From Roseomonas sp. (lineage in GTDB: Bacteria > Pseudomonadota > Alphaproteobacteria > Acetobacterales > Acetobacteraceae), in NCBI GenBank assembly GCA_031180725.1, contig JAPSLO010000001.1:310001-374000 (forward strand): a DNA stretch of 64,000 bases, read 5' to 3'. Positions 3,913 to 29,036 of this stretch are shown piece after piece (within the stretch, counting starts at the first letter, position 1; every line of letters starts with the position of its first letter). The translations under genes were made by a program, and so were the position numbers. Below the pieces are notes generated by a model that ran no database searches, was not told where the DNA came from, and saw only the letters and a program-made list of their open reading frames with translations.

Positions 3913-4026
3913 CGACAGAGCCGACGGCCCGGGGCGACACCCGCGACTGCGTCTTGATCCATGGGGCATTGTGCGGGCGGCGAGAGCCGCGACCGCAGCA
4001 TGCCGACACCGCCAGGGAACCGGCAA

Positions 4027-7474: not shown

Positions 7475-7531
7475 CTCGTGCCGCCGCGCGCGCATAGCCT
7501 TCCAAGGCTGCCACGCGACGGGGGATGGGCG

Positions 7532-9121: not shown

Positions 9122-9132
9122 GGATCTACGCC

Positions 9133-9660: not shown

Positions 9661-11042
9661 GCACGGAGCTATGGCGCCTGCCGGCCGCGCGTCTCGCGGC
9701 GATGATCGCCGCGCGTCAAGTCTCGCCAGTGGAAGTGATGGACGCCGTGCTGGCGCGCGCCGAGGCGGTGCAAGGCAGGCTGAACATCTTCGTCCTGCCG
9801 CTGTTCGAAGAAGCACGCGAAGCCGCACGCTGGGCGGAGGCGGAGGTGATGGCGGGCACGCCGCTCGGCCCGCTGCATGGCGTCCCCTTCACCGTGAAGG
9901 ACAATGTTGCGATGCGTGGCCTGCCGACGTGCAACGGCACCATCGCCGTGGAAAGCCCGCGGGCGGCGGAGGATTGGGCCGTGGTGGCACGCCTGCGCGC
10001 GGCGGGTGGCATTCCGATCGGCAAAACCACGCTGCCGGAATTCGCCCATAAGGTCCTGACCGACAGCCCGCAGACCGGCGTCACGCGCAATCCTTGGAAG
10101 CTGGACCGGACGCCGGGCGGGTCCAGTGGTGGGGCCAGCGCGGGGCTAGCCGCCGGCGTCGCGCCGCTGGCAATCGGCACGGATGGCGGTGGCTCCATCC
10201 GCTGCCCGGCCTCCTGCACCGGGGTGGTGGGGCTGAAGGCCACGCTGGGGCGCATCCCGAACGAGACCTTCCCCGATCCCTTCGGCAATTATGCTTTCGT
10301 GGGTCCCATGGCGCGCAGCGTGGCCGATTGCACACTGATGTTCGAGGTGATGGCGGGGGCCGAGCCGCGGGATCCGCATTCGTTGCGCTTGCCGCCCAGC
10401 GGGCCCCCGCCTGCAGTGCGCGGGCTGCGCATTGGCTGGATGCCGCATTTCGGTCGCTACCGCACGCACGCCGAAGTGCTGGTCTGCCTGGATGCCGCGC
10501 GCAACGCGTTGGTGGCAGCAGGCGCGGAGGTAGAGGATCTCTCCGATCCCTGCTTCAACGATGTCTTCGCCATCTACCAGCCCATCGCCACTGTCGCGCA
10601 TGCTGCGCGGCTGGGACCGCTGGAGGAACGCGCCGGAGAGCGCATGACGCCGTCTCTGCGCGAGAGCATCGCCATCGGTCGCCGCTTCGGCGCAGCTGAA
10701 TATCAGCAGGTGGTGGACCGCCGTGGCGCCCTGTTCCGCGCCGTGCAGGCACTGTTCGCGCGCTTTGACCTGATCGCGACGCCCTCCATGCTAGCGCCGC
10801 CGGTGGCGCTGAATGCCGGCGGTTCGGTGGCCGCCACCTTCTACGCGGAATGGGCGGCGCCGCTCTATCCTTTCAATCTTACGGGCCATCCAGCGGCTTC
10901 GGTGCCTGCCGGCTTCTCCTCGGAAGGCACGCCGATCGGGCTGCAGCTTGTCGGCCCCTGGCATGGCGAAGCGGTGATCCTGGGCGCCGCGGCGGCGCTG
11001 GAGGAGGCACTGGACTGGCCGCGGTGGTGGCCGGCGATGTAA
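9657..11042 (+). CDS. Amidase signature family hydrolase
   Basis: 461 residues with the amidase-signature fold. The Ser-cisSer-Lys triad is readable: Lys81 in TVKDN, Ser156 in GGSSGGA and nucleophile Ser180 in GTDGGGSIR. It hydrolyses C-N amide bonds; the substrate is not deducible. Its ATG overlaps the cupin stop (ATGA), giving a three-gene operon with a periplasmic binding protein, so the imported compound is plausibly an amide or a peptide-like molecule cleaved here in the cytoplasm. A GatA role is unlikely because gatB and gatC are absent nearby. A strong hairpin separates it from the convergent decarboxylase genes. Confidence 0.88.
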   Translation: MSTELWRLPAARLAAMIAARQVSPVEVMDAVLARAEAVQGRLNIFVLPLFEEAREAARWAEAEVMAGTPLGPLHGVPFTVKDNVAMRGLPTCNGTIAVESPRAAEDWAVVARLRAAGGIPIGKTTLPEFAHKVLTDSPQTGVTRNPWKLDRTPGGSSGGASAGLAAGVAPLAIGTDGGGSIRCPASCTGVVGLKATLGRIPNETFPDPFGNYAFVGPMARSVADCTLMFEVMAGAEPRDPHSLRLPPSGPPPAVRGLRIGWMPHFGRYRTHAEVLVCLDAARNALVAAGAEVEDLSDPCFNDVFAIYQPIATVAHAARLGPLEERAGERMTPSLRESIAIGRRFGAAEYQQVVDRRGALFRAVQALFARFDLIATPSMLAPPVALNAGGSVAATFYAEWAAPLYPFNLTGHPAASVPAGFSSEGTPIGLQLVGPWHGEAVILGAAAALEEALDWPRWWPAM

Positions 11043-11097: not shown

Positions 11098-11712
11098 TCA
11101 GCCCGGGGCGCCCCCGCTCGCGATTGCTCGCATGAAGTGGTCGCGGATGCGCACCGGCTCGCGCGGGGTCTGGCTGACCGCCGACTGGCCGTCGATCTTC
11201 AGCGCGATCAGCGTGGGCGAGGCGCGCATCTGCGCGGCCGCAAACAGCGCCTCGAACTCGGCTTCGTCCGAGGCCCAGTGGCTCTCCGCCAGGCCGGAGC
11301 CGCGGGCGATTGCCACGATGTCCACCGCCGAGGCGGTGGCGGTCGGCTGGGATCCGGTGATCTGGTAGATGCCGTTGTCCATCACCACGATGGTCAGGTT
11401 GCGCGGCGCGCGCAGCGCCACGGTGGACAGGCAGCCCAACTGCATGAGCAGCGATCCGTCGCCCTCAAGCGCAATCACCCGCCGGTTCGGCTGCGCCAGC
11501 GCCACGCCCAGTGCGATGGGGATGGCCAGGCCCATGCTGCCCAGCATGTAGAAATTCTCCGGCCGATGGCCGGCGCTCCAGAGGTCGAAATGGGTGTTGC
11601 CGATCCCGCCGATCACCGCCTCGCCCTGCGTCAGGCGGGACACCAGCCGCTTCGTGACCTCGAAGCGGTTCATCGGCTGCGCATTGCGGCCGCGCTGCGG
11701 CTCCTGGCTCAT
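11098..11712 (-). CDS. TPP-binding (beta) subunit of a sulfopyruvate/phosphonopyruvate decarboxylase-like enzyme
   Basis: 204 residues forming only the thiamine-pyrophosphate PP-binding domain. GDG at 84-86 is followed by MDNGIY at 111-116, the usual GDG-X(25-30)-N motif that holds Mg-pyrophosphate. Two-gene TPP decarboxylases split this way include ComD/ComE sulfopyruvate decarboxylase and phosphonopyruvate decarboxylase-like proteins. The substrate is therefore probably a 3-substituted pyruvate or another 2-oxoacid. Its ATG overlaps the stop of the alpha-subunit gene (ATGA), which supports a hetero-oligomer. It is the last gene of the minus-strand train and is followed by a strong hairpin. 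Acetolactate synthase is less likely because both domains are small and the central domain is missing. Confidence 0.82.
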   Translation of the reverse strand: MSQEPQRGRNAQPMNRFEVTKRLVSRLTQGEAVIGGIGNTHFDLWSAGHRPENFYMLGSMGLAIPIALGVALAQPNRRVIALEGDGSLLMQLGCLSTVALRAPRNLTIVVMDNGIYQITGSQPTATASAVDIVAIARGSGLAESHWASDEAEFEALFAAAQMRASPTLIALKIDGQSAVSQTPREPVRIRDHFMRAIASGGAPG

Positions 11713-12248
11713 GGCTTCAGCACCTTCCCGCCGGTCAGCAGCGGCGACAGGATAAGGCAGGCCGGGGCTTGCGTAGCGACGGCCTGACGGATCGTACGGT
11801 CGGCGATGAACTCGAACTCATCCAGCCGCGTGCAGGTGTGGTGCTCCACGGCAAGCGAATCGAGCACCGGACGCATGGTGCGGCAGACCAGTGCCTGGCC
11901 CAGGTTGAATTCGCCCAGCGTGCCGCGTTCGGACACCACCATCAGCACCGGGATCTGCGCCGCCACGGCCAGGGATGCCAGCACATTGGGCAGGGTGGCG
12001 AAGCCGCTGGTCTGCATCAGCAGCACGCCGCGCATGCCGCCCATCCAGGCGCCGCTGACGATGCCCAGCCCTTCCTCCTCGCGCGTCACGCAGAAGGCGT
12101 CGAAGAAGGGGTCCTCATGCACCGCGGCCAGCAGCGGCTTCAGCACATTATCCGGCACATAGGTGACCAGCCGGACATTGTTCGCCTTCAGCACATCGCG
12201 CAGCACGATGTGCCAGGGCCGCGCGGCGGCACATTCAGCACCGGCCAT
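11709..12248 (-). CDS. Pyrimidine-binding (alpha) subunit of a TPP-dependent decarboxylase
   Basis: 179 residues forming the PYR half of a TPP enzyme. The cofactor-activating Glu lies in REEEG (Glu57-59), after YVPDNVLKPLL, which is typical of sulfopyruvate decarboxylase alpha subunits. The start at 12248 is set by a perfect AGGAGG a few bases upstream; a longer in-frame reading (to 12389) lacks such a site and has an unrelated leader. The beta subunit overlaps its end by four bases. A 188-bp gap with a GC hairpin separates it from the binding-protein gene upstream, so it may have its own promoter. The 2-oxoacid substrate is unknown. Confidence 0.82.
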   Translation of the reverse strand: MAGAECAAARPWHIVLRDVLKANNVRLVTYVPDNVLKPLLAAVHEDPFFDAFCVTREEEGLGIVSGAWMGGMRGVLLMQTSGFATLPNVLASLAVAAQIPVLMVVSERGTLGEFNLGQALVCRTMRPVLDSLAVEHHTCTRLDEFEFIADRTIRQAVATQAPACLILSPLLTGGKVLKP

Positions 12249-12393
12249 GCGAAGCCTCCTGGCGACGCGGATCTGGGTGGGTTGAGTCGATCGGCACGTC
12301 ACGCTCCCTGCAGGCCCGTGGACTGCATGTTCTTGCTTGACCACAAACATGCAGCGCCCGGGCCGGTCGGGCAAGAGAGACCATGACACGAGG

Positions 12394-12428
12394 CCGGCGC
12401 CGGCCGGGACAATGACCGCCGGCGCCGG
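12394..12428 (-). terminator. GC hairpin downstream of the family 5 binding-protein gene
   Basis: Two copies of the self-complementary CCGGCGCCGG separated by 15 nt can pair into a 10-bp stem just 8 nt beyond the stop of the minus-strand binding-protein gene. No U-tract follows. It is a candidate terminator or processing hairpin before the TPP decarboxylase genes. Confidence 0.35.
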
Positions 12429-12436
12429 AGGGGAAT

Positions 12437-13945
12437 TCAGCGTGGCTGGAAATCTATTGCGCGCACCCAGTCATCGCCGCGCGCCTGCCAGCGCACGCGA
12501 TTGGACTGGGCATAGGTCACCGGCTGCGTGAACAGCCACAGCACGGGCGATTGTTCGCACATCCGCGCTGTCGCCTGATGATAAAGCACGCGGCGCCGAT
12601 CGGCCTCGGTGGTGCGGCGCGCCTCCCGCAGCAACTGGCTGAAGGGCTCGTCATTCCAATAGGCATAGGGATTACCGGCCTCGAACAGTGAGAGCAGGCC
12701 ATCCGCGTCCAGCGTCGGCCAAGCCTGGGTCAGATAGGCCAGGTTGCCCATATCGGCGGCGCGCAAATACTTATTCATGAAGGCGCCGAATTCCATTTCA
12801 ACGATCCGTACGCGGATGCCGACTTCCTCAAGCTGCGCGGCGACAGCCTGCGCCACGTCCTGCGCCAGCAGATAGGGGCCGACCGGCACATCCAGGTCCA
12901 GCGTGACGGAACCCGGACGGATGCCGGCTTCCTGCAGCAGCCGACGCGCGCGGGCGGGGTCATAGGCTGGCGGGCGGAGATCGGGGTTGAAGCCGAAATA
13001 GGCAGGGGTCAGCACCTGGCAGGGCGAGATGGTGCCCATGCCGCCCCAGATCGCATCGCGAATGCCTTCGCGATCCACCGCCAGGTTCAGCGCCTGGCGC
13101 AGAGCCAGGCTGTCGCGCAGGGGCGGGGTCAGCATGTTGAACTTCAGGAACAGGCTGCGCGTGGAATCCACCGAAGCCGCCTGCGCGCGGTTCGAGGCAT
13201 TGATGCGCTGGAACTCCGAAGGCGGCACGCCGGTGATCAGGTCCACCTCGCCGGCCAGCAGAGCGGCGATGCGCGCCCCGGCTTCGGGGATGACGCGGAA
13301 GGTAACGGTGTCGAAGGCCGGCTGCTCGCCGGCCCAGCCCGGGCGCGACTGCAGCACCACGCGGTCGCCGGGGGTGAATTGCCGCAGCTCATAAGGGCCG
13401 GCGCCGAGCGCGGCATTGGCCGGGTTGTTGGAAGCGGCCCAACGCGGCGGCAGCAGGAAGAAGGCTGATAGCTGCGCGGGCAGGGCAGGATAGGGCTCGC
13501 TGGTATGGACCTCGATCTCGGTGGGGGAGATCACGACGACCTCCTTCACCAGCGCGAACCAGGGTCGCACGCGGGCATTGTTGCGCGGGTCCAGCACGCG
13601 GTCGAAGTTCCACTTCACCGCCCCCGCATCCAGCGCCTCGCCATTCGGGAAAGTGACGCCCTGCCGCAGGGTGAAGCGCCAGGTCAGGTCGTCCACCGCG
13701 CGCCAGGCAGTGGCGAGCTGCGGCCGTAGCTGCATGTCCGGCCCGCGCAGCAGCAGCGCTTGATGGATGTGGCTGATCACCGACAGGTCGGTGCCGATGG
13801 TGGCCGTGTTGTGCGGGTCCAGCGTGTTGATGTTCGTGCTGACTGCGATGGTTAGCGAGCGCTGCTGTGCGGTGGCCGGCGCAGCGAGGCCGGCGGCAAA
13901 GAGCAGGGTGAGCACCCCGCGGCGTGTCACATCCAGGATGCGCAT
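12437..13945 (-). CDS. Family 5 ABC transporter substrate-binding protein
   Basis: 502-residue periplasmic binding protein of the DppA/OppA family. The N terminus (MRILDVTRRGVLTLLFAAG, cleaved after ATA-Q near residue 27) is a signal peptide; the RR within it is not a full Tat motif. The mature start (LTIAVSTNINTLDPHNTA) and LRQGVTFPNGEALDAGAVKWN are diagnostic. It is encoded in the same direction as, and 14 bp after, the alpha/beta hydrolase gene. With the BCDF permease/ATPase genes 5 kb upstream it would complete an importer. Hydantoinase genes head the train, so a hydantoin-, lactam- or peptide-like solute is plausible but inferred. Confidence 0.88.
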   Translation of the reverse strand: MRILDVTRRGVLTLLFAAGLAAPATAQQRSLTIAVSTNINTLDPHNTATIGTDLSVISHIHQALLLRGPDMQLRPQLATAWRAVDDLTWRFTLRQGVTFPNGEALDAGAVKWNFDRVLDPRNNARVRPWFALVKEVVVISPTEIEVHTSEPYPALPAQLSAFFLLPPRWAASNNPANAALGAGPYELRQFTPGDRVVLQSRPGWAGEQPAFDTVTFRVIPEAGARIAALLAGEVDLITGVPPSEFQRINASNRAQAASVDSTRSLFLKFNMLTPPLRDSLALRQALNLAVDREGIRDAIWGGMGTISPCQVLTPAYFGFNPDLRPPAYDPARARRLLQEAGIRPGSVTLDLDVPVGPYLLAQDVAQAVAAQLEEVGIRVRIVEMEFGAFMNKYLRAADMGNLAYLTQAWPTLDADGLLSLFEAGNPYAYWNDEPFSQLLREARRTTEADRRRVLYHQATARMCEQSPVLWLFTQPVTYAQSNRVRWQARGDDWVRAIDFQPR

Positions 13946-13959
13946 CGACTCTCCCCTTC

Positions 13960-14793
13960 TCAGGCGCCGTGCCTGGCCAGGAACTGGCGGATGCGCGCCA
14001 GGACGGCATCGCGCGCTTCCACATGAACCGCGTGGTTCGCGTTTTCCACCATGAACAGCTCCGCGCCCGGAACCTCCTCGGCAATGATCCGCGACTGAGA
14101 GGGCGGGCAGATCCAGTCGGCGGCGCCGCAGATCACCAGTGTCGGCACGGCGATCTCCTTCAGCCGCGGCCGCAGGTTGTAATCCTTATTCGCGAACAGC
14201 GCGTTGTGGGTCTCCGCGTGGAAATGCATCCGCCGCGTGCGTTCCAGCGAGGCGTCGGGATCGAATTTCTCATAGTAGAGCGGCTGCAGGGCCGCCCATA
14301 TCAGGCGAAGTTCCGTATCGTCCACCACCTGGTCGGAGAACATCTTCTCTACCATGCGGACCGAGGCGCTGGTGGCCTTGTGCAGCCGCGCCTTGATGTT
14401 CTCCACGGCCTCCGCCTCATGGTGATGCGAAGGCGCGGTGCCGCGCAGGATCAGGTGAGAGGCGCTGCCAGGATGCCGGAGAGCGTGTGTCAGCGCGATC
14501 ATGCCGCCGAATGATCCGCCGAGCACCACGCAGGGTCGGCGCACCATGGCCTGGCGCAGCTCCTCGAGGTCATCGGCCAAGCGGTCGAAGGTGAAGGGCG
14601 CTGTCAGGGAGGAGAGACCGCAGCCGCGCTGATCATAGGCGATCAGGCGGTATTCGTCCGAGAGCGGGCGATAGGCTTCGAGCTCCCCCGCATGGTCGCC
14701 GATGCCGCGGCCACCATGGAGCAGGATGATGGTGCCGCGTTTTGGTGTGCCGATGTCCACCACATGCAGATCGGCGCCGGCGATGCGCATCAT
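13960..14793 (-). CDS. Alpha/beta hydrolase, proline iminopeptidase-like
   Basis: 277-residue alpha/beta hydrolase. The oxyanion-hole HGG lies at 26-28, nucleophile Ser94 in the elbow GGSFGG, an Asp follows in CGAADW, and the general base His is in NANHAVHVE near the end. YDQRGCGLS at 53-61 is the hallmark of proline iminopeptidases and related esterases. It could hydrolyse a small peptide, ester or lactone released by the upstream enzymes. It has no signal peptide, so it is cytoplasmic. Its ATG overlaps the UROD-like gene stop (ATGA), making it part of the translationally coupled train. The precise substrate is not deducible. Confidence 0.83.
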   Translation of the reverse strand: MMRIAGADLHVVDIGTPKRGTIILLHGGRGIGDHAGELEAYRPLSDEYRLIAYDQRGCGLSSLTAPFTFDRLADDLEELRQAMVRRPCVVLGGSFGGMIALTHALRHPGSASHLILRGTAPSHHHEAEAVENIKARLHKATSASVRMVEKMFSDQVVDDTELRLIWAALQPLYYEKFDPDASLERTRRMHFHAETHNALFANKDYNLRPRLKEIAVPTLVICGAADWICPPSQSRIIAEEVPGAELFMVENANHAVHVEARDAVLARIRQFLARHGA

Positions 14794-15770
14794 GCCGCTC
14801 CCCGGATGCGCCCGGCGATGCTGGCGAGGAAATCGCGGTCTACCGGATGGCGGATGACGCAGCCGGGCGATAGCAGGATGCTACGGCCGGCATTCACCGC
14901 CAGCGCGGCGGCGATGTCGGCCTCCACGGTTGCCATTTCGCGCGCCGTGATGGGCATGCGGCGCAGCCCGCCGAGCACGGGCTTCGTGCCGCCGGCGGCG
15001 CGATATTCCGCAATGCTGGGCGCAGTCTCCCCGACATGCCAGTTCAGCGCGTGGACGGGGTAGGTAGAGAGGACATCGAAGGCGATGTCGTCGCCATGCA
15101 TATGCACGGCGTTGAACCATCCATCGCGCGCGCCTTCCAGCGCCGCCAGGTCGTGATCCAAGCCGAGTTCGCGCCAGGCGGCCTCGCCGGCGGTGCCCGT
15201 GGCATCCTGCACGGCGAAGAAGACGCCGGCACAGCCCAATGCGATGGCACGGGCGGAGAAGGCGGCCGTGGTGGCGGCGATCTCGTCCAACGCGGCCCGG
15301 ACCAGCGCAGGATGGCTGGCGGCATGGGCGGCGAAGGCGCCGCCCGAAAGCTTCTTCGCGGTGGTCACAGGTGAGAAGACGGTGGCGAGCACCGGCCGAT
15401 CCGGCCCCAGCGCCTGCACCAGCAGCGAGAGGTGGCGCAACTCCCGCCCCAGCGTGCCGGCGGTGGGGTCCAGGCGCTTCACTCTTGCCCAGTCCTGTGG
15501 CGTGCGAATAGGGCTTTCGGTGACCTTCGCCACGCCGCCCGCGGCGACCTCGGAGAAATCCGTGCGTACTCCCCAATCCTCGACGGCATAGAGGCCGTTG
15601 GGCATGGATTTCACGAAGTCCTGCCGCGTGGCGCGGACGAAGCTCAGCGTTTCCCGCGCCACCGCATCTGGGTCGAGGTCCGTTTCGGGAAAATGCGTCC
15701 AGAAGGCGTAGGGCGCGCGCGGCGTGGCTTGGCCGGCCAGCGCGGCGCGGACGAGATCGGCTGGGCTCAT
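14790..15770 (-). CDS. Uroporphyrinogen decarboxylase-fold protein (not HemE)
   Basis: 326 residues with the TIM-barrel fold of the UROD superfamily, which also includes MtaA/MtbA-type methylcobamide:CoM methyltransferases. True HemE has an N-terminal RQAGR motif that is absent here. The methyltransferase zinc motif HxCx(n)C appears only as HMHGDD, with His in place of Cys and no matching late Cys, so the enzyme's chemistry is open. Residues near SPVTTAKKLSGG and PVLGGLRRMPI fit the family core. It is coupled to both neighbours by ATGA overlaps: the BisC-like molybdoenzyme upstream and the hydrolase downstream. A role in methyl or C1 transfer, or decarboxylation, during catabolism of the imported compound is inferred. 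Confidence 0.75.
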   Translation of the reverse strand: MSPADLVRAALAGQATPRAPYAFWTHFPETDLDPDAVARETLSFVRATRQDFVKSMPNGLYAVEDWGVRTDFSEVAAGGVAKVTESPIRTPQDWARVKRLDPTAGTLGRELRHLSLLVQALGPDRPVLATVFSPVTTAKKLSGGAFAAHAASHPALVRAALDEIAATTAAFSARAIALGCAGVFFAVQDATGTAGEAAWRELGLDHDLAALEGARDGWFNAVHMHGDDIAFDVLSTYPVHALNWHVGETAPSIAEYRAAGGTKPVLGGLRRMPITAREMATVEADIAAALAVNAGRSILLSPGCVIRHPVDRDFLASIAGRIRGAA

Positions 15771-18049
15771 GGAGCGGTCTCTTCCAGGATGGCGGGCGGC
15801 GCGAAGGCGCGCGGTGGTGCGGCGGGACCATCCCAACGCGCCACCTGCACCAGACAGGAATTGGGCGAGGGCCCCTGCGAGAGGCGGGAACTGCCTATAT
15901 CCGGCGTCAGTACGTTCGGGTTGCCGTGACGCTCCAGGCCAGATTCGTCCAGATCCAGCCAGGCGCCCGTGGGCAGGCTGGCCACGCCCGGCATCAGCGC
16001 CGCGTCGGGCTGCGCTACGGCGAGCAGCGCGCCGCGGTCGTTGAAGAGGCGCACGGTGTCGCCGGCCGCGATGCCGCGCGCGGTGCAATCCTGCGGATTC
16101 AGCCGCACCACTTCCCGTCCGTCGCGCTTGCCGGCACGGCTCGCGGCGGCGGGGTCCAGCTGGCTGTGCAGCCGGCCTTCGGGCTGCGGCGAGAGGAGAT
16201 GGATGGGAAAGCGCGCCGCCCTTTCGGCGCCCAACCATTCCTCGGGCGGTAGCCAGGCGGGATGGCTGGGACAGTCGGCATAGCCGAAGCTGGCAATGCG
16301 CGGCGTGCTGATCTCGATGCGGCCCGAGGGCGTGTCGAGCGGCGCGCCATCGGGATCGGCAACGAAGCGGCGCAAGCGATGGCGCGGGTCGGCCGGCTCC
16401 GGCGGGCCTTCCAGCCACGCTACGCCCTCTTCGCTGAAGGTCTCGAAATCCGGCAGTTCGGGGTGTCTGGCGCGATAGCCTGTATAGAGATGTTCAAGCC
16501 AGCCCATTTCGTCGCGATCTTCCGTGAAGGCGTCGCGCAGGCCGAAGCGGGAGAGCAGATCGGCCAGTGCCGCATGGTCGGTGCGCACCCCGCCCGGCGG
16601 CTGCGCAATGGCGCGGCTGAAGACGATGGCGTTGTCGCGTGAGGAGGCGGCGATGTCGTTGCGCTCGATCGGCAAGGCGCTGGGCAGCACCAGATCCGCC
16701 CGACGCGCGCTGGCGGTCCAGACATGGTCCTGCACCACTACCGTCTCCGGCCGCATCCAGGCGCGAGCCAGGCGATGCAGGTCCTGGTGGTGATGGAAGG
16801 GATTGCCGCCAGCCCACCAGACCAGCCGGATATCAGGCAGGGCGATGCGGCGGCCGTTATAGTCCAGCATGCCGCCGGGGTTCTCCAGCAGTTCCGTGAT
16901 ACGGGCCACGGGGATGACATGCGGCACGGGGTTGCGGCCCTGGGGCAGGGCGGGGCCTTGCAACCGCCGCACCGGATTGCCCACCGATCCCACCGCACCG
17001 AGGCCGAAGGCGATGCCACCACCGGGCTTGCCGATCTGCCCCGCCATGGCGGCGAGCGCGATGGCGGCCCAGTAGGGCTGTTCCCCGAAGCGGGCGCGTT
17101 GCAAGGACCAGGCGAGGGTCAGTGTGCTGCGCGTCGCGGCAACGGCGCGCGCGAGCACCCGGATAGTGGCAGCAGGCACGCCGCAGATCGCTTCCGCCCA
17201 CTCTGGAGACTTTGCCGGGGCCGCACGCAGATAGCCCTCGAACGCCTCGAAGCCCACGGTGCAGCTTTGCAGCAAGGCGTGGTCCAGCAGCTCTTCCTCC
17301 AGCAGCACATGCGCCATGGCCAGCAGCAGGGCGGTGTCTGTGTTGGGGCGGAGTGGGATGTGCTCGGCCTTCAGCCCCGGCGGCACATCCCCGCCATCGG
17401 GCGAAAGCACCACGATGCGGCAGCCATTCGCCACCGCTTCGTCCAGCCATTGGCGCACGCGGTGGCGCGTGCTGCCCCCGGCCTCGACCTGCGCATTCCC
17501 GGGGCGGAAGCCGCCGAAGGCCACCATCAGCTGGCATGCCGCCGCGATGTCGTCCCAGTAGGGCGCGGTGTCGCAGGCATCCCGCTGCGCACTGCCCAGG
17601 ATATGCGGCAGCAGCACGCCCGCGGTGCCGTAGGAGTAAGTATTCACTGAAGTGGTGAAGCCGCCCAGCAGGTTCAGCGCGCGCTTCAGCTGGCTCTGCG
17701 CATGGTGGAAGCGGCCGGCGCTGGCCCAGCCGTAGGAGCCGGCGAAGATCGCGCTGTTGCCGTGCCGCGCGATCACGCGCTTCAGCTCATCGGCCAGGCG
17801 GTTTAGCGCGGTGTCCCAGGGGACGGGGATGAAAGGCTCGCGTCCGCGCCCCTCGCCGCCGGAGGTGCCGTGCCACCAGCCGGCGCGCGCCATGGGTTGC
17901 GGGATGCGCAGCGGATGCGCCGCCATCTCCAACAGGCCGGGCCCGATCGCCGAGGGCGCGGGATCGCCGGCGAAGGGTGCCAGCACCGGCTTGCCGGCTG
18001 CATCGCGGTGGACTTCATAGGTGCCGAAATGCGTGCCGATCAGGTGCAT
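15767..18049 (-). CDS. BisC/DMSO-reductase family molybdopterin oxidoreductase
   Basis: 760-residue bis-MGD molybdoenzyme of the serine-ligated subgroup. SYGWASAGR at 105-113 carries the Mo ligand Ser110, as in biotin sulfoxide, TMAO and DMSO reductases. The N-terminal Cys cluster for Fe-S is absent, as expected. No twin-arginine signal is present, so the protein is cytoplasmic like BisC rather than periplasmic like TorA. It probably reduces an S- or N-oxide taken up by the adjacent ABC transporter, using cytoplasmic reductant. Its start lies 2 bp from the end of the DppF-like ATPase gene, and its end overlaps the UROD-like gene. The substrate is unknown; biotin or methionine sulfoxide would be family precedents. 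Confidence 0.88.
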   Translation of the reverse strand: MHLIGTHFGTYEVHRDAAGKPVLAPFAGDPAPSAIGPGLLEMAAHPLRIPQPMARAGWWHGTSGGEGRGREPFIPVPWDTALNRLADELKRVIARHGNSAIFAGSYGWASAGRFHHAQSQLKRALNLLGGFTTSVNTYSYGTAGVLLPHILGSAQRDACDTAPYWDDIAAACQLMVAFGGFRPGNAQVEAGGSTRHRVRQWLDEAVANGCRIVVLSPDGGDVPPGLKAEHIPLRPNTDTALLLAMAHVLLEEELLDHALLQSCTVGFEAFEGYLRAAPAKSPEWAEAICGVPAATIRVLARAVAATRSTLTLAWSLQRARFGEQPYWAAIALAAMAGQIGKPGGGIAFGLGAVGSVGNPVRRLQGPALPQGRNPVPHVIPVARITELLENPGGMLDYNGRRIALPDIRLVWWAGGNPFHHHQDLHRLARAWMRPETVVVQDHVWTASARRADLVLPSALPIERNDIAASSRDNAIVFSRAIAQPPGGVRTDHAALADLLSRFGLRDAFTEDRDEMGWLEHLYTGYRARHPELPDFETFSEEGVAWLEGPPEPADPRHRLRRFVADPDGAPLDTPSGRIEISTPRIASFGYADCPSHPAWLPPEEWLGAERAARFPIHLLSPQPEGRLHSQLDPAAASRAGKRDGREVVRLNPQDCTARGIAAGDTVRLFNDRGALLAVAQPDAALMPGVASLPTGAWLDLDESGLERHGNPNVLTPDIGSSRLSQGPSPNSCLVQVARWDGPAAPPRAFAPPAILEETAP

Positions 18050-18051
18050 GG

Positions 18052-18953
18052 TCAGGCGCCATCCAGCACGAGATGGCCGCTGCCCAGGTCCCGCAAAGCG
18101 GCGCCGGGGGGGAAGGTGTAGCCGCCGGCATCGAAGGGCAGCCGTTTCCGCCCGCGTTCCCGCACCGGGTCCGGGATGGGCACGGCGGAGAGCAGTGCCC
18201 GGGTGTAGGGATGGCGCGCGTCCGCGAACACCGCTTCCACCGGCCCGGCTTCCACGATGCGGCCCCTCAGCATCACAGCGACCCGGGTGCAGAGATAGCG
18301 TACCATGGACAGGTCATGCGCGATGAACAGCAGCGCCAGTCCCAGCCTTTCCTGCAAATCCTGGAACAAGTTCACGATCTGCGCCTGGATGGAGACATCC
18401 AGCGCCGTGATCGGCTCGTCCGCTACCAGGAATTCCGGTTGCAACGCGATGGCGCGGGCAATGCCCACGCGTTGCCGTTGACCCCCGCTGAATTCATGCG
18501 GGAAGCGCTGCATGAAGGCGGGATCCAGGCCCACGGTGCGGAACAGCTCCGCCACCCGGTCTCGCCGTTCTGCGGCGCCACCGCCGACATCATGCACCAG
18601 GAGGGGCTCCGCCACGAAGTCACCCACGCGCATGCGCGGGTTCAGCGCGGCGTAGGGATCCTGAAAGACGATCTGCATGCGCCGGCGGAACGGCTTGCGC
18701 TGCGCGGGCGTCATCGCGGTCAGGTCGGTACCGGCGAAGACAACATTGCCGCCATCCGGTTCCTCCAGCCCCATTACCAGGCGGCCGGTGGTGGATTTGC
18801 CGCTGCCGCTTTCGCCGACCAGCCCCAGCGTCTCGCCCGCCGTCATCTCGAAGGAGACGCCATCCACCGCGCGCGTCACGAGCCCGCTGCCAAACAGGCC
18901 GGCCCTGCTGCGATAGGTGCGGCGCAGATCGCGCACGCTGAGCAGCGGCGGGT

Positions 18954-18957
<4 letters not shown>
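18052..18957 (-). CDS. Dipeptide/oligopeptide ABC transporter ATPase, DppF/OppF type
   Basis: 301-residue cytoplasmic ABC ATPase. Walker A is GESGSGKST at 48-56, the signature is FSGGQRQRVGIARA, and Walker B is VADEPITALD; the LSMVRYL and HPYTRALL segments mark the OppF/DppF subfamily, whose C-terminal region binds Fe-S in some members. It starts inside the end of the DppD-like gene (4-bp overlap) and ends 2 bp before the molybdoenzyme gene. It forms a heterodimer with the DppD-like ATPase to power the permease pair encoded just upstream. Confidence 0.9.
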
Positions 18958-19945
<988 letters not shown>

Positions 19946-19946
<1 letters not shown>

Positions 19947-20803
19947 CAGCGCACCTTCAGCCGCGGGTCGAGGTAGTCGCGCAGCCAATCCCCCAGCAGG
20001 TTTACCGAAAGCACGGTCAGCATCAGCGCCAGGCCGGGGAAGGTGATGATCCACCAAGCGGACGAGATATAGGTGCGCCCCTCGGCCAGCATCCGCCCCC
20101 AGCTTGGCGCTGGCGGCTGCACGCCGAGGCCGAGGAAGGAGAGCCCCGCTTCCAGCACGATCACCCGCGCCAGTTCCAGCGTCGCCACCACCACCGCCGG
20201 CGTCAGCACATTGGGCAGGATGTGCACCAACAGGATGCGTGGGGCGGAAGCGCCGATGGCCCGCGCCGACTGCACAAATTCCCTCTCGCGCACCGCCAGC
20301 ACCTGGCCGCGCACGATGCGCGCATAGCGCACCCAGGAGACTAGGGCGAGCACGCCAATGAGGTTGTGCAGGCTGGGCCCGAGTGCGGCGACCACCATCA
20401 GCGCCAGCAGCATCAGCGGGATCGCGAGCTGGATATCCACCAGCCGCATCAGCAGCCGGTCCAGCAGCCCGCCGAAATAGCCGGATGCGAGCCCGAGCAG
20501 CGTGCCGAGGATGCCGCCCAGCACCACCGCTGCTCCGGCCACCATCAGCGTCACCCGACTGCCGGCGACGATGCGCGAGAGGATGTCGCGCCCGAGCTGA
20601 TCCGTGCCCAGCGGATGCGCGCCGAGCCCTGCCCAGGAGAGGGTCGGCGCCACCATGCGGGCACGCAGATTGGTGCGCGTCGGATCCGGCAGGTCCAGCA
20701 GCGGCCCGAAGGCCGCCAGCAGCACCAGCACCACGATGAGAAGCAGGCCGGCCAGGCCGAGCCAGCCGGAGCCGCGGGTGAGGGCGCGCCAGAAATCCCT
20801 CAT
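19946..20803 (-). CDS. ABC transporter permease, DppC type
   Basis: 285-residue inner-membrane permease with an N-terminal transmembrane helix, the OppC-type N domain (RMVAPTLSWAGLGAHPLGTD), DQLGRDILSRI, and about six membrane helices in the core. The EAA loop region reads ARAIGASAPRILLVHILPN, contacting the ATPases. It begins 4 bp inside the DppB gene and ends overlapping the DppD gene, so stoichiometric production by coupling is likely. Confidence 0.9.
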
Positions 20804-21720
20804 CCGCGCCTCCGGATACGCGGGTCCAGAATGCCGTAGAGCAGATCCACGAAGAGATTGATGACGACGAAGGTTGTGGCAATGACCATGACGCCGGCTT
20901 GCACCACGGGGAAGTCCTTCGCCTCCATCGCCTGCACGATGACGCGGCCGACACCGGGCCAGGAGAAGACCGTTTCCGTGACCACGGAACCACCGAGCAA
21001 TTCACCTGCCAGGATGCCGGTCATGGTGACGACAGGGATCAGGCTATTGCGTGCCACATGCCACAGGAAGACGGTGGCGGGCTTCAGCCCCTTGGCGCGG
21101 GCAGTGCGCACATGGTCGTCGCGCAGCACGTCCAGCATGCCGCTACGCAGCAGCCGCGCGATGGAGGCGGTGGTGAAGGTGCCGAGCGTCAGTGCGGGCA
21201 GGATCAGGCTGGCCGGGCTGTCATAGCCGCCCGTGGGCAGCAGACCGAGTTCCACCGCGAAGAGCAGGATCAGCAGCAGGCCGAGCCAGAAGACCGGCGT
21301 GGCCTGGCCTAGCAGGGCCAGAACCATCACCGCGGCTTCGACCACCGTGCCGCGGAACAGCGCGGCGAGCGAGCCGGCAACGGCACCGAAGACGAGGCCG
21401 AAGCCGAGTGCAGAGAATGCCAGCGCCATGGTGGCCGGCATGCGTTCCAGCACCACATCCAGCGCCGGGCGCATGAACTGAAAGGAATCACCGAAGTTGC
21501 CCTGCGCCGCGCCGGCCAAGAAAGTAAGGTACTGCTCCCACAGCGGCCGGTCCAGGCCGAGACCGGCGCGCAGCTCCGCCATCTGTGCTTCCGTGGCACC
21601 CACTGGCAGCAGCAGCACGGTGGGATCGCCCAGCAGGCGGGAAATGACAAAGACAATGGTAACGACGCCGAGGATCGCGACCAGCCCGTCGAACAGCCGG
21701 CCGAGAAGGTAGCGCGCCAC
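20800..21720 (-). CDS. ABC transporter permease, DppB type
   Basis: 306-residue inner-membrane permease. The first helix and LGDPTVLLLP (periplasmic OppB segment), GLDRPLWEQYLTFL and the cytoplasmic EAA-like loop TARAKGLKPATVFLWHVARN are typical of DppB/OppB. It is the first transporter gene of the train, starting 5 bp after the HyuB-like gene stop. Physical linkage with hydantoinase genes suggests the importer feeds a hydantoinase/oxoprolinase-type pathway. Confidence 0.9.
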   Translation of the reverse strand: MARYLLGRLFDGLVAILGVVTIVFVISRLLGDPTVLLLPVGATEAQMAELRAGLGLDRPLWEQYLTFLAGAAQGNFGDSFQFMRPALDVVLERMPATMALAFSALGFGLVFGAVAGSLAALFRGTVVEAAVMVLALLGQATPVFWLGLLLILLFAVELGLLPTGGYDSPASLILPALTLGTFTTASIARLLRSGMLDVLRDDHVRTARAKGLKPATVFLWHVARNSLIPVVTMTGILAGELLGGSVVTETVFSWPGVGRVIVQAMEAKDFPVVQAGVMVIATTFVVINLFVDLLYGILDPRIRRRG

Positions 21721-21725
21721 GGGCC

Positions 21726-23357
21726 CTAATCCTCCAGCCCGTAGATCTCGCGCGCTGCGCGGGAGGAGATGCGCCCTTCACGCAGGTCGCGCCGGACCAG
21801 ATCCCGGTCACGCTGCCGTGGATCACCATAGCCACCGCCGCCGGAGGTGACGGCGGCTGCCCATTGGCCGGGGCCGATCACGCCATCGCGCCGGTGCAAC
21901 TTCACGCCCTCATCCAGCTCGATCCGCGCCTTGCCGCCGGGATGGCCGCCATCCAATCCCCAGGCGGGGACGATGTTGTTCGGCCCGCCGAGATTCACCG
22001 TTGCTTGGTGATCCACGGCGCGCAGTTTGCGGCGGATCGCCATGCCACCCCGGAAGCGGCCTGGCCCGCCGGAATCCTGCACGAGTTCATAAGCTTCCAC
22101 CATCACCGGGTGCTCGGTCTCCAGCGCTTCGACCGGGATATTGGCGGAGTTGGTCAGGTGCATGTGCACGCCGTCCAGCCCATCCTGCGCGGCACGGCCG
22201 CCCATGCCGCCGCCCATGCTTTCGTTGTAGACATAAAAGCGCGCGGTACGGGGATGCAGGCCGCTCAGCGTCATCACGGTAATGCCGGTGGAGGCGGCCA
22301 TGACGCGGTCCGGAATGGCCTGGGCAAGGGCGGCCAGCATCATGTCCGCCAGGCGCTGCGCCACTTCGTGCCGGCTGTAGACGGCGGCGGGTGGCAGGGC
22401 GTTCACCACCGTGCCTGGCGGGGCGATGATGCGCACTGGGCGGTGAAAGCCAGCATTGGCCGGCGTGTCCGGATCGATCAGAGTCTTCACCACGTAGTAG
22501 ACGATGGCCTGCAGGGCGGTGAAGACCATGTTCATGCCGGTGCGGTTCTGAGGCGGGCAGCCGGTGAAGTCGAAGGTGATCTCCTCACCCTTCACCTCCA
22601 CCGCCACCGCTAGGTCCAGCAATTCGGGCCAGAGGCTGGTGTCAAAGGGGTGGCGGAATTCGTAGCGCCCATCGGGAATGGCGGCGATGCCGGCGCGGGC
22701 CTTACGTTCGGAATAGTCCATCAGCAGGCGGCCCGCCTCTTGCAGCGTGGCGGCGCTGTGGCGCGCGCAGAGCGCCTGCACGCGCTGCACGCCCAGCCGG
22801 TTGGCCGCCATCTGGGCGCGGAAATCATTGGTGCGCTCATGCGGGACTTGGCAGTTCAGCAGGACCAGGTCCATCACATCCTGCTGCAATACCCCCGCGC
22901 GATAGAGCCGTACGGGCGGGATGCGCAGCCCTTCCTGGAAGATATGGGCGTGGCCGCGATCCACGAAGTCCGAGTGATGCGCCAGATTCGCCACCCAGGC
23001 GATGATCTCGCCCCCCACGAAGACGGGTTCCAGGAAGACGATGTCGTTCAGATGCGTGCCGCCGCCAGTATGTGCATCATTGCCGATAAAGACATCGCCG
23101 GGCGCCACCGTGGAAAGATCCACCCGCGCCAGGGTCTCGGTGGTGATGCCGAGCAGGCTGCCGAGGTGGAAGGGAATCTGCTCCGCCTGTGCCACCACAT
23201 GGCCCTTGGTATCGAAGATCGCCGCGGAACAGTCGCGCCGTTCCTTGATGTTGGCGGAATAGGCGGCGCGGATGATCGCCTTGCCCATTTGCTCCACGAT
23301 GGTGGAAAGGGCGCTGCCGATCACCTCGACGGTGATGGGATCGAGCCTCGTGATCAC
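21726..23357 (-). CDS. hyuB: Hydantoinase B/oxoprolinase family subunit
   Basis: 543 residues matching the HyuB half of ATP-dependent N-methylhydantoinase/5-oxoprolinase: LDPITVEVIGSAL at the N terminus, SANIKERRDCSAAIFD, and GNDAHTGGGTHLND, followed by the C-terminal GPGQWAAAVTSGGGGYGDP. The start is a GTG at 23357 that overlaps the HyuA stop (GTGA). A longer in-frame reading upstream is not homologous. HyuA and HyuB form one ATP-dependent hydrolase opening cyclic amides such as hydantoins or 5-oxoproline; related acetone and acetophenone carboxylases share the fold. The absence of a third, small carboxylase subunit favours hydantoinase/oxoprolinase. Confidence 0.88.
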   Translation of the reverse strand: MITRLDPITVEVIGSALSTIVEQMGKAIIRAAYSANIKERRDCSAAIFDTKGHVVAQAEQIPFHLGSLLGITTETLARVDLSTVAPGDVFIGNDAHTGGGTHLNDIVFLEPVFVGGEIIAWVANLAHHSDFVDRGHAHIFQEGLRIPPVRLYRAGVLQQDVMDLVLLNCQVPHERTNDFRAQMAANRLGVQRVQALCARHSAATLQEAGRLLMDYSERKARAGIAAIPDGRYEFRHPFDTSLWPELLDLAVAVEVKGEEITFDFTGCPPQNRTGMNMVFTALQAIVYYVVKTLIDPDTPANAGFHRPVRIIAPPGTVVNALPPAAVYSRHEVAQRLADMMLAALAQAIPDRVMAASTGITVMTLSGLHPRTARFYVYNESMGGGMGGRAAQDGLDGVHMHLTNSANIPVEALETEHPVMVEAYELVQDSGGPGRFRGGMAIRRKLRAVDHQATVNLGGPNNIVPAWGLDGGHPGGKARIELDEGVKLHRRDGVIGPGQWAAAVTSGGGGYGDPRQRDRDLVRRDLREGRISSRAAREIYGLED

Positions 23358-25459
23358 GCCGCCACCTCCTCGATCATTAGGTTCAGCCCGGGATCCACGG
23401 TGGCGACCTGGCCGGGCAGCACCAAAGTGGTGCTGTCCATCTGCTCGATGATGGCGGGGCCGGGGATGGCGTGGCCGGGGCCGAGCTTTTCGCGGTCGTG
23501 CACGGGGCAGGCAATGGTCCCGCCGGCTTCCGGCAGCCAGAGGCTGCGTGTCCCGGTGATGGTCTCGGCCAGTGGCGTGGCAGTGGGTGGATGGGCGGGC
23601 AAGGCGGCCTTCGGCACGCGACCCGTGGCGTCCAGCCGCAGTGTCACTACGCGGATCGGCTCCTCTGGCGAGATATAGCCGTAGTACTGGCGGTGCGCTT
23701 CCTCGAAGCGGTTGCGCAGAATGACGAGCGTGGCTTCGGTGAGCGGACCTGGCGGGCAATCCACGGTCAGCTCATGCGCCTGGCCTTCGTAGCGCATATC
23801 TACGCTGCGGGAGATGCCGCGGTCGGGCGGCGCGATGCCTTCCTCGGCGAACCAGGCCTCGGCCTGAGCCTCCAGCGCCGCATAGCCTTCGGCGACACTC
23901 GGTAGGCTTTCCGTACCCAGCTTCGCCATGCGGCCCGCGGCCAGGTTGATGCGCAGGTCGGTCAGCAGCAGGCCCAGCGCGCAGAGTAGGCCGGGGCTGC
24001 GCGGCACCAGCACGCGGCGGATCTCCAGCTCTCGCGCCAGCCGCGCGGCATGGACGGGGCCGGCGCCGCCGAAGGCCATCAGCATATAGTCGCGCGGATC
24101 CAGGCCGCGCTCGACGGAAATGACGCGGATCGCCTTCGCCATATTGGCCGTGACGACGGAGAGGATGCCCTGCGCCGTCTCCATCGTGGAAAGATTCATC
24201 TTCCCCGCCAGCCGCGCGATGGCGGCCTCGGCCTTCGCACGGTCGATCGGCATGCGGCCGCCCAGCAGATGGGTGGGGTGCTGCACGCCTAGCACGACAT
24301 TGGCGTCGGTGACGGTGGGTTCCTCGTTCCCCAGCCCGTAGCAGACCGGGCCGGGATTGGCGCCGGCGCTGGTGGGGCCGACCTTCAGATGGCGCCCCGC
24401 ATCCACCCGCGCGATGGAGCCGCCGCCGGCGCCCACCGTGTGGATGTCGAGCATCGGCACCTTCAACGCATGGCCATGCACTTCCGTGTCCATGGCCATT
24501 TGCGCGCGCCCGTCCTCGATCAGCGCGACATCGGAGGAAGTGCCGCCCATGTCGAAGGTGATGATGTGCCCGAGCCCCGCGGCGGCACCAATGGCAATGG
24601 CGCCCATGACGCCTGCGGCAGGGCCGGACAGCACCGTGCGCACAGGCTGGCGTGCCGCGGCCTCGGCGGAGATGACGCCGCCATTGCTCTGCGTCAGATG
24701 CGGCGGATGGACAATTCCGGCATCCCGCAGGCGCGGCGCCAGGCGACCCAGATAAACCTGCATCACCGGCCCCAGCGCGGCGTTCAGCGCCGTGGTCGAG
24801 AACCGTTCGTATTCGCGGTATTCCGGCGCGACTTCATGCGAGGCGGTGAGAAAGACGGTGGGTAGCTCCTCCGCCAGGATCTGCTTCGCGCGTGCCTCAT
24901 GTGCCGGGGCGAGGTGGGCGAAGAGAAAGCAGATCGCTACTGCCGCCACGTCTTCCGCTTTCAGTCGGCGCGCGGCCTCACGCAACGCGGCCTCGTCCAG
25001 CGGCAGGGCGACGCTGCCGTCGAAGCGCAGGCGTTCTGGCACTTCCAGCCGCAGGTCGCGGGTGGCGGGCGGCGCGGGCTTGCGCACCTGCAAGTCGTAA
25101 AGCGCCGGGCGCATCTGACGGCGGATCTCGATCACGTCGCGGAAGCCGGCTGTGGTCACCATGCCCGCGCGCGCTAGGCGGCCCTGGATCAGCGCATTGG
25201 TTGCCACGGTGGTGCCATGGCCGACATAGGCCACATCCGCACCTGCATGGCCCGCGGCTGCCAGCCCCTGCACGATGCCGCTGGCGATGGCCTCCGACGG
25301 GTCATGCGCCGTGCTGCTCAGCTTCCAGACGGAAAGGCGCCCCGTGGCGGGATCGTAGAGGCAGACATCGGTGAAAGTACCGCCGCTGTCCACGCCGATG
25401 CGCAGCCGCGCGGGCAGTTCCCAGGAGGCGTCAGGGCCGGATGCCCGTGCATTCACCAC
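23354..25459 (-). CDS. hyuA: Hydantoinase A/oxoprolinase family subunit
   Basis: 701-residue ATP-binding subunit. The actin-like ATPase N domain is visible as RIGVDSGGTFTDVCLYD (about 20-36), with GHGTTVATNAL and MGGTSSDVALIEDG completing the phosphate-binding loops. ATP hydrolysis activates the cyclic amide for ring opening together with HyuB. It heads the minus-strand train and faces a divergent GntR regulator across about 90 bp containing a perfect 12-bp palindrome. Expression of the whole train is thus probably controlled here. Confidence 0.9.
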   Translation of the reverse strand: MVNARASGPDASWELPARLRIGVDSGGTFTDVCLYDPATGRLSVWKLSSTAHDPSEAIASGIVQGLAAAGHAGADVAYVGHGTTVATNALIQGRLARAGMVTTAGFRDVIEIRRQMRPALYDLQVRKPAPPATRDLRLEVPERLRFDGSVALPLDEAALREAARRLKAEDVAAVAICFLFAHLAPAHEARAKQILAEELPTVFLTASHEVAPEYREYERFSTTALNAALGPVMQVYLGRLAPRLRDAGIVHPPHLTQSNGGVISAEAAARQPVRTVLSGPAAGVMGAIAIGAAAGLGHIITFDMGGTSSDVALIEDGRAQMAMDTEVHGHALKVPMLDIHTVGAGGGSIARVDAGRHLKVGPTSAGANPGPVCYGLGNEEPTVTDANVVLGVQHPTHLLGGRMPIDRAKAEAAIARLAGKMNLSTMETAQGILSVVTANMAKAIRVISVERGLDPRDYMLMAFGGAGPVHAARLARELEIRRVLVPRSPGLLCALGLLLTDLRINLAAGRMAKLGTESLPSVAEGYAALEAQAEAWFAEEGIAPPDRGISRSVDMRYEGQAHELTVDCPPGPLTEATLVILRNRFEEAHRQYYGYISPEEPIRVVTLRLDATGRVPKAALPAHPPTATPLAETITGTRSLWLPEAGGTIACPVHDREKLGPGHAIPGPAIIEQMDSTTLVLPGQVATVDPGLNLMIEEVAA

Positions 25460-25471
25460 TGCGGCTCCTTG

Positions 25472-25483
25472 ATTGGCGCCAAT
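25472..25483. promoter_or_regulatory. Perfect 12-bp palindrome, candidate GntR operator
   Basis: ATTGGCGCCAAT is perfectly self-complementary. It lies 12 bp before the hyuA start and about 70 bp before the divergent GntR gene, where an autoregulated GntR/FadR-type dimer would bind. The half-site spacing fits a compact GntR operator but has not been compared with known sites. Confidence 0.5.
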
Positions 25484-25552
25484 TTTCCTGACACAAACGC
25501 TACCTATATGTCAACCAGCCCCGCTTCTTTCTGCGGGCGGCCGGAGACTGCG

Positions 25553-26200
25553 ATGGAGCAGGCGATCACGCGCCCGGGGCTTGGCGCGGAACGGGCGCGC
25601 TACCTAGCGCAACGGATGGAACGCGATATCGGGCTGGGAGATCTGGGCCCTGGTGCCTGGCTGAAGCAGGTGGATCTAGAACAGCGCTACGGTGCCACGC
25701 GCATGGAGGTGCGCCAGGCGCTGGACCGGCTGGTGGAGAAGGGGCTGGTGAAGCACCTGGCCCGCCGCGGCTATCGCGTAGAGGATTTCGACCCCGACCG
25801 CCTGGCCCAGATCATGCAGATCCGCGCTGCGCTGGAGGTGGAGGCCGCCGCGATGGTGATCCATCGCCTGGAAGAGGCCACGCTGGCCGCCATGGCGGCC
25901 CAGGCCGAACGCTACCGTGTGGCCCTCGACGAAGGCACAGTGGAGGAGCATGAGGAGGCGAATCTCGAATTCCACCGCCTCATGCTCTCGCCCTGCCCGA
26001 ACCGCGAACTGGTGAAGTTGCTGTTCGACTTGCGGACCCGGGTGCCGGTCGCCGTGACGCGCCGGCGCAATAGCCTCGGCGTGCTACGCCGTGCGGCAGA
26101 GCACCATTTCGAGATGGTGCGCCTGATCCGCGCCGGTGATCTGCCAGCCTTGCAGCGGCTGATGCGGGAGCACAATCTCAGCCCGAGCCCAGAGGCCTGA
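25553..26200 (+). CDS. GntR family regulator with FCD-type ligand domain
   Basis: 215 residues. The N-terminal winged helix reads LKQVDLEQRYGATRMEVRQALDRLVEKGLVKHLARRGYRV, followed by a helical FCD ligand domain with EVEAAAMVI and HHFEMVRLIRAGD (a His of the metal site). The ATG at 25553 is preferred because GGAG sits 6 nt before it; the upstream in-frame ATG at 25508 has no ribosome site. It is divergent from the hydantoinase/ABC/molybdoenzyme train and probably controls it through the palindrome between them. Its stop is 5 bp from the convergent gene. Confidence 0.88.
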   Translation: MEQAITRPGLGAERARYLAQRMERDIGLGDLGPGAWLKQVDLEQRYGATRMEVRQALDRLVEKGLVKHLARRGYRVEDFDPDRLAQIMQIRAALEVEAAAMVIHRLEEATLAAMAAQAERYRVALDEGTVEEHEEANLEFHRLMLSPCPNRELVKLLFDLRTRVPVAVTRRRNSLGVLRRAAEHHFEMVRLIRAGDLPALQRLMREHNLSPSPEA

Positions 26201-28259: not shown

Positions 28260-28287
28260 GGCTTGTTCCTCCCGTTCCGCGGCGCCT

Positions 28288-29004: not shown

Positions 29005-29036
29005 GGCAGTCCTTCCTGGTGGCGTGTGACGTCCGC

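Follow-up and report, generated by a model that had tools for sequence, protein, structure and literature searches.

Enzymes of the hydantoinase branch can be told by the order of their two genes and by the lengths of their subunits, as laid out in PMC5214803. Importers of the PepT type consist of two permeases, two ATPases with oligo_HPY domains and a solute-binding protein (SBP) of family 5, and methyltransferases of the MtaA type combine the UROD/MetE fold (UROD, uroporphyrinogen decarboxylase) with an HxC...C motif. The genera carrying mlp genes that PMC10418091 deals with, whose products are of the same kind, are obligate anaerobes. In this study we analyse a locus of Roseomonas sp. in which relatives of these systems are joined by a BisC-like molybdoenzyme. 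It lies on contig C8 of a 5.69 Mb genome, in a stretch of 64,000 nucleotides (nt; contig JAPSLO010000001.1, positions 310,001 to 374,000), which is referred to as a whole as the window. The ten minus-strand genes at 12437-25459, hyuA-hyuB-dppBCDF-BisC-UROD-abH-SBP, with a divergent GntR gene alongside, very probably constitute an operon dedicated to uptake and catabolism, with BisC as an optional member. A literature search for such a gene set, covering openly licensed papers, yielded no paper apart from one on dichloromethane that contains each search term once, in line with a first-pass annotation of the DNA, which knew of no described system of this kind; the set is no one-off, however, but belongs to a modular family of clusters in which it is one of the combinations.

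Organization of the locus

All twelve minus-strand genes that the first-pass annotation had listed are present at 11098-25459, with the families it had named for them (Pfam/NCBIfam), and the tight coupling it had proposed is borne out with one exception. Six of the 11 junctions are 4-nt overlaps (hyuA/hyuB as GTGA, dppB/dppC, dppD/dppF, BisC/UROD, UROD/abH and tppA/tppB), dppC and dppD overlap by 1 nt, and short gaps separate hyuB from dppB (5 nt), dppF from BisC (2 nt) and abH from the SBP gene (14 nt). The exception is the distance of 188 nt between the SBP stop codon and the ATG of tppA (12248, behind AGGAGG), the first gene of a pair that we judge to be a neighbour outside the operon. This gap contains a G+C-rich hairpin, the strength of which is not above that of shuffled sequence (z -0.60), and terminator prediction called none there; a promoter scan gave no match, and terminator-like sites (4 versus a shuffle mean of 5.2) are not in excess.

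The ten genes are probably co-transcribed, and the divergent GntR/FCD regulator (25217..26200, plus strand; Pfam GntR and FCD), whose real start probably lies further in since its helix-turn-helix begins at residue 130 of the open frame, is a likely candidate for their control. The hyuA gene (23354..25459, minus strand as for all ten) encodes the alpha subunit of an ATP-dependent hydantoinase/oxoprolinase according to Pfam, PDB and the CapA model, and hyuB (21726..23357; Pfam Hydantoinase_B, PDB) starts with a GTG, as read from the sequence. The best PDB match of both products is N-methylhydantoinase (E 4e-149 for hyuA, E 3e-78 for hyuB), and the hydAB gene order and Hyd-type lengths (an open frame of 701 aa followed by one of 543 aa) place the pair in the hydantoinase branch; the caprolactamase models CapA and CapB are matched with 588.5 and 245.7 bits, under the cut-off of 1000 each.

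The importer has the composition of the PepT type. Its permeases, DppB-type (20800..21720) and DppC-type (19946..20803), are identified by NCBIfam Opp/Nik/Dpp/Gsi models, every one of them scoring below cut-off, its ATPases, DppD-type (18954..19946, with the ATG at 19946 chosen by sequence) and DppF-type (18052..18957), by NCBIfam and by Pfam ABC_tran and oligo_HPY, and its SBP (12437..13945) by Pfam SBP_bac_5. Between the importer genes lie the BisC-like gene (15767..18049), the gene for the UROD-fold enzyme (14790..15770) and abH (13960..14793), coding for an alpha/beta hydrolase near proline iminopeptidase and enol-lactonase (Pfam and NCBIfam; the best 25 of 30 models are all below cut-off).

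Conservation within the genus

That these genes form a dedicated unit, as had been suggested, is corroborated by related genomes. Nine of them, hyuA-hyuB-dppB-C-D-F-UROD-abH-SBP, occur in unchanged order and with a gntR homologue at the equivalent place in front in five of the 14 other genomes of the genus, and this synteny of nine of the ten genes rules out a chance juxtaposition. The UROD-like gene is present in 6/15 genus genomes, the window genome included. In all five sister operons (stretches L046-L050, with L078 as the front of G301) dppF is directly followed by UROD, with no BisC between them, and the same is seen on the contig of a metagenome-assembled genome (MAG; L004) up to its end in abH. 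The operon of the culturable relative Falsiroseomonas stagni is likewise without BisC. At E 1e-150 a BisC-like gene is detected in each of the 15 genus genomes; in the five sisters it is sited away from the operon, and the window genome carries two, the second on contig C1.

Only few genomes have a UROD relative. It was detected in 2/385 genomes of the class (E 1e-60, window genome counted), in 3/299 of an order sample (E 1e-3, window genome counted), in 1/299 of a phylum sample (E 1e-40, the window's own) and in 5/72,556 plasmid records (E 1e-5), and a pattern-based scan of the genome collection gave 13 loci, the close relatives of the window among them being Acetobacteraceae/Roseomonadaceae, e.g. 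Falsiroseomonas.

A modular cluster family

The core genes recur with swapped enzymes in G535, a genome of another family of the same class, as well as in Rhizobium, Neorhizobium, two Microvirga and Ketogulonicigenium. The linkage of BisC and UROD genes to a dpp importer, on which the first-pass annotation had staked its proposal, is thus found elsewhere. A relative of abH is present in 16 loci, which are not independent because four HyuAB/UROD loci (L005, L006, L007 and L013) are closely related. Of these 16, 14 contain dpp genes; HyuA is found in ten and an M24 hydrolase in six, never both, UROD without O163/CMD in ten, O163/CMD without UROD in five and both in one, and BisC in five, one copy being broken. 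The single locus with UROD and O163/CMD is that of Microvirga VF16, where UROD belongs to a neighbouring unit. On plasmids, tblastn finds relatives of abH and of the SBP in the identical 13 records.

The G535 cluster reads M24 hydrolase - octopine-dehydrogenase family - dppBCDF - UROD - abH - SBP - BisC. In Rhizobium WYJ-E13 and Microvirga lotononidis, plasmids carry flavin oxidoreductase - dppB - dppC - M24 - dppD - dppF - BisC - O163 - CMD, then SBP and abH, with RidA and a pyridoxal phosphate (PLP) enzyme ahead of the SBP gene in Rhizobium and a DUF885 protein between SBP and abH in M. lotononidis; Neorhizobium galegae VafX2 has a cluster of this Rhizobium/Microvirga type, in which BisC is split over two frames. 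We know of no published description of these plasmid clusters. HyuAB accompanies importer, SBP and abH in Neorhizobium NCHU2750, Microvirga VF16 and Ketogulonicigenium. The order UROD - M24 - abH is found on two MAG contigs from Acetobacteraceae (L010 and L012), with dpp genes seen in neither; abH is followed by two major facilitator superfamily transporters and a racemase (Pfam) in L010, and L012 has a racemase relative.

Broken or incomplete BisC, Cds1 and RidA genes were observed in Polaromonas (L091 2798-6782), Neorhizobium VafX2 (L100 8647-10891) and Microvirga VF16 (L090 14144-15137), and may reflect either the decay of optional modules or sequencing errors.

The BisC-like molybdoenzyme

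The BisC-like protein was predicted to be a serine-ligated molybdenum enzyme lacking a signal for twin-arginine translocation, and its alignment agrees with this. It starts at the mature core, residue 4 aligning with residue 10 of chain 1eu1, and Ser139, Tyr106 and Trp108 align with positions 147, 114 and 116 of that chain. Ser139 is the residue that we take to be the molybdenum ligand in the frame of dimethyl sulfoxide (DMSO) reductase, the roles of all three residues being assumed to be those known in that enzyme. With TIGR00509 the protein scores 774.5 bits, under the curated cut-off of 1017.55.

A 24-row tree unites the window BisC, with 100/100 support, in one clade with those of Rhizobium and M. 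lotononidis, which are also located directly behind dppF, the highest identity being 57%. A first tree of 30 rows had left the window on a long branch; five plasmid rows were then added and 11 genus rows dropped, the broken copies of Neorhizobium VafX2 and Polaromonas (in the latter BisC lies about 3 kb from UROD) being excluded. BisC of G535 falls into a separate clade, though it is part of the same kind of cluster, and a single clade of window and G535 BisC was rejected (p-AU 0.00245, in the 30-row tree and with the test chosen after the tree had been seen). We infer from these trees that BisC joined such clusters at least twice. In the tree of the operon core the window is placed among BisC-less operons, with a support of only 81/78 for its sister relationship, and either one gain or several losses may account for the history of BisC in the genus. 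BisC is an optional, yet real member of the cluster. To our knowledge, most BisC-type enzymes are without known physiological substrates, and with one clade of BisC linked to a single importer, the SBP offers an entry point.

The UROD-fold protein

UROD relatives are annotated as uroporphyrinogen decarboxylase (family) proteins. The window protein matches Pfam URO-D with about 53.4-53.9 bits, and its identity as HemE is ruled out, as contig C5 carries another gene that reaches 383.8 bits with this model. Its nearest solved relative, in profile as well as in fold, is MtaA (4ay7). A search of viral folds brought no useful match (best E 0.044). It shares the UROD/MetE fold of MtaA-type enzymes and, instead of their HxC...C motif, has HxHG...C (H223, H225 and C304), which is common to the window protein and 23 relatives (24/24) and resembles the metal site of MtaA.

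One could consider a role as corrinoid-dependent methyltransferase like that of MtaA, MtbA and Mlp, in which the protein would demethylate the imported compound via a corrinoid protein encoded elsewhere. MtaA being the best profile and fold match, and one gene for a RACo-type corrinoid activator being present in the genome, would agree with this. The cysteine at the second ligand position of the motif is replaced by histidine, however, neither corrinoid protein nor activator was recognized in the operon or among the annotated neighbours of the relatives (where not every gene was scanned), and the RACo gene is located on another contig, which makes such a role quite unlikely. The RACo-type gene itself lies at G000:C1:49519-50304 (L103), and its family is found in 1/14 control genomes.

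Alternatively, the UROD-fold protein might be an accessory subunit of the HyuAB enzyme, like Apc-epsilon (ApcE) of acetophenone carboxylase. We consider this very unlikely: a sequence comparison with 9fou gave no match up to E 10 (11% identity), the protein fits MetE chains equally well, and the two partners occur apart, as the stretches of G535, L010, L012 and Gemmobacter contain UROD but no HyuAB, and those of Neorhizobium NCHU2750 and Ketogulonicigenium contain HyuAB but no UROD.

Cysteine-desulfurising neighbours

Some UROD loci are linked to genes for cysteine desulfurisation. The PLP enzyme of the Rhizobium cluster matches the L-cysteine desulfhydrase Cds1 (567 bits, cut-off 600), and relatives of it are found together with RidA behind UROD-TctCBA in Gemmobacter, as incomplete Cds1/RidA pieces at the equivalent place in Microvirga VF16 and, broken, adjoining UROD in Polaromonas. 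The Cds1 relative of Shinella comes after genes for L-2-amino-thiazoline-4-carboxylate hydrolase and an M20 hydrolase, a context consistent with cysteine as its substrate; the relative in Paracoccus follows RidA, without thiazoline-carboxylate or M20 hydrolase genes. In Propionivibrio the gene order is CyuA - Lrp - TctBAC - UROD, where the CyuA-like protein is 62% identical to the L-cysteine desulfidase CyuA of E. coli, and in a Eubacteriales MAG UROD is followed by a 33% CyuA relative; neither CyuA relative really matches the serine deaminase SdaA, and a search with E. coli CyuA finds the same two loci. In Aerococcus a UROD relative (31%) lies 40 nt behind a MetQ-type importer.

The count was based on 58 stretches of at least 8 kb (L108-L111 left out), 27 of them with UROD, i.e. 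22 after removal of five duplicates. Cds1 or CyuA is present in 5/22 distinct UROD loci, always within about 4.1 kb of UROD, versus 1/31 loci without UROD, a contrast that is indicative only because the queries were chosen after the neighbourhoods had been seen; the single positive without UROD is the very Rhizobium cluster that supplied the Cds1 query, and L079, counted among the 31, is the continuation of a UROD locus.

A possible pathway

Based on these observations we put forward, tentatively and with somewhat less than even confidence, the following overall explanation. The divergent GntR regulator would probably control the operon, and the SBP and DppBCDF would import a small amide- or peptide-like compound, from which the cytoplasmic BisC may remove an S- (or N-) oxide. 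HyuAB would open a cyclic amide with ATP and abH cut a further bond, and the UROD-fold enzyme, in which two His and one Cys probably form a metal site, would attack the portion that contains sulfur, most likely by releasing the thiol from an S-substituted cysteine. The imported substrate to be broken down would then be an S-substituted cysteine amide or peptide, and a sulfoxide-bearing one is plausible. Taken by itself, the derivation of the substrate from cysteine is rather doubtful.

The same operon may instead serve a sulfur-free N-heterocycle, hydantoin, lactam or opine, an option that we regard as real, albeit somewhat questionable. HyuAB or M24 would open the ring, BisC reduce an N-oxide or N-hydroxy group or hydroxylate the ring, and UROD decarboxylate or transfer another group. 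The closeness of HyuAB to N-methylhydantoinase and caprolactamase speaks for this, as do the octopine-dehydrogenase-family genes in the clusters of G535, Gemmobacter, Microvirga VF16 and Neorhizobium NCHU2750 and the Asp/Glu/hydantoin racemase in L010 and L012, whereas the enrichment of Cds1/CyuA at UROD loci and the MetQ-type importer next to UROD in Aerococcus argue for sulfur.

Several further findings weigh against our proposal of a sulfur-directed operon. None of the eight loci in which dpp genes run into UROD has Cds1 or CyuA, as a sulfur-free substrate would lead one to expect; the cysteine link stems from UROD clusters with Tct importers or from Polaromonas, its observation having preceded the count, and a Cds1 match was obtained in 0/15 genus genomes, the window's among them, in a search that had no positive control and did not include CyuA. 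For the importer, HyuAB, BisC and abH no NCBIfam model among the listed matches (the best 25 for the two ATPases and for abH) reaches its cut-off, and consequently no substrate can be read from the families. Relatives of HyuA occur in unlike contexts on other plasmids (an octopine Ti plasmid, Terrarubrum, Martelella and Sodalis), no corrinoid protein was recognized among the operon genes by Pfam or NCBIfam, and BisC is absent from six sister operons, so that an S/N-oxide step would not be essential to the pathway. On the octopine-type Ti plasmid (L104 5098-24218) a 58% HyuA relative is found with an FAD oxidoreductase, RidA and two ABC importers in a catabolic region.

Going further, we speculate, and hold it to be unlikely, that the HxHG...C branch represents a new enzyme class that removes S-substituents from cysteine derivatives without a corrinoid partner and that recurs at the centre of interchangeable modules for import, amide hydrolysis and S-oxide reduction, which turn plant- or microbe-made cysteine conjugates into cysteine. 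If the cysteine reading is true, the operon would add a route for bacterial cysteine recovery from conjugates. As the branch has its own conserved, altered MtaA-like site and its neighbourhood points to sulfur amino acids in some lineages, a concrete substrate screen is feasible, and the recurrence of the parts in shuffled combinations makes an unstudied enzyme group testable.

Genes next to the operon

The pair tppA/tppB (11098..12248, minus strand) encodes a two-subunit protein like a thiamine pyrophosphate (TPP)-dependent decarboxylase, tppB passing PRK06163 (319.5, cut-off 240) and the sulfopyruvate decarboxylase ComDE models staying below their cut-offs (beta 159.1 versus 221.5, alpha 104 versus 147.95). 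Its inclusion in a train of twelve genes did not hold up: besides the 188-nt gap, tppB occurs in 1/15 genus genomes (E 1e-40), no tppAB match is found in the five sister stretches, and there is no close copy in the related clusters, the sole tppB match at UROD or abH loci elsewhere being one of 29% in L014, 6.5 kb from UROD. A link to coenzyme M, which would combine sulfopyruvate decarboxylase with the UROD-fold enzyme, was dropped because other clusters are without close tppAB. In the class, tppB was detected in 5/385 genomes (E 1e-45, the window's included), and in 2/4 of the others a D-2-hydroxyacid dehydrogenase homologue lies beside tppAB. In G301, whose operon is the closest sister, the site of the window's tppAB is occupied by another, diverged pair of hyuAB genes (L046 5889-9599).

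A second family 5 SBP and an amidase (7478-11042, plus strand) are convergent with tppB. Behind the regulator, a TctC-type receptor, an RraA-like protein and a D-2-hydroxyacid dehydrogenase are encoded on the minus strand (27288-29990); TctC homologues are also located near UROD in several other loci. Elsewhere in the window (2887-5919) there are two family 2 glycosyltransferases, the second with domains of GlfT2-type galactofuranosyltransferases, enzymes usually discussed in mycobacteria.

Comparison with known systems

HyuAB shares its gene order and subunit lengths with N-methylhydantoinase (7hk5) and with the caprolactamase CapAB of the hydrolase branch, but differs from CapAB in scoring below the curated CapA and CapB cut-offs. 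Similarly, the importer resembles the Dpp/Opp/Nik/Gsi (PepT) importers in its five genes and its oligo_HPY domains, although none of their models among the listed matches reaches cut-off. The BisC-like protein is related over its full length to the serine-ligand type of the BisC/TorA/DMSO reductase family (1eu1), with the Ser/Tyr/Trp signature and no leader, and is set apart from it by its score below the TIGR00509 cut-off and by its own clade of dppF-linked genes. The UROD-fold protein differs from MtaA (4ay7) and the Mlp proteins in having His, not Cys, at the second ligand position. According to PMC10418091, type 1 mlp gene clusters encode a corrinoid protein and its activator, whereas neither is recognized in the window operon. 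The UROD relatives found here are mostly from proteobacteria (e.g. Falsiroseomonas and Microvirga), unlike the anaerobic mlp genera.

Further counterparts are the plasmid clusters of Rhizobium WYJ-E13, M. lotononidis and N. galegae, where RidA and Cds1 are found only in Rhizobium. There M24 replaces HyuAB of the window, and a flavin/CMD set replaces UROD, whereas importer, SBP, abH and BisC are related to those of the window, with 51-74% identity over the matched pieces (48% in one BisC piece), and BisC follows dppF just as it does in the window.

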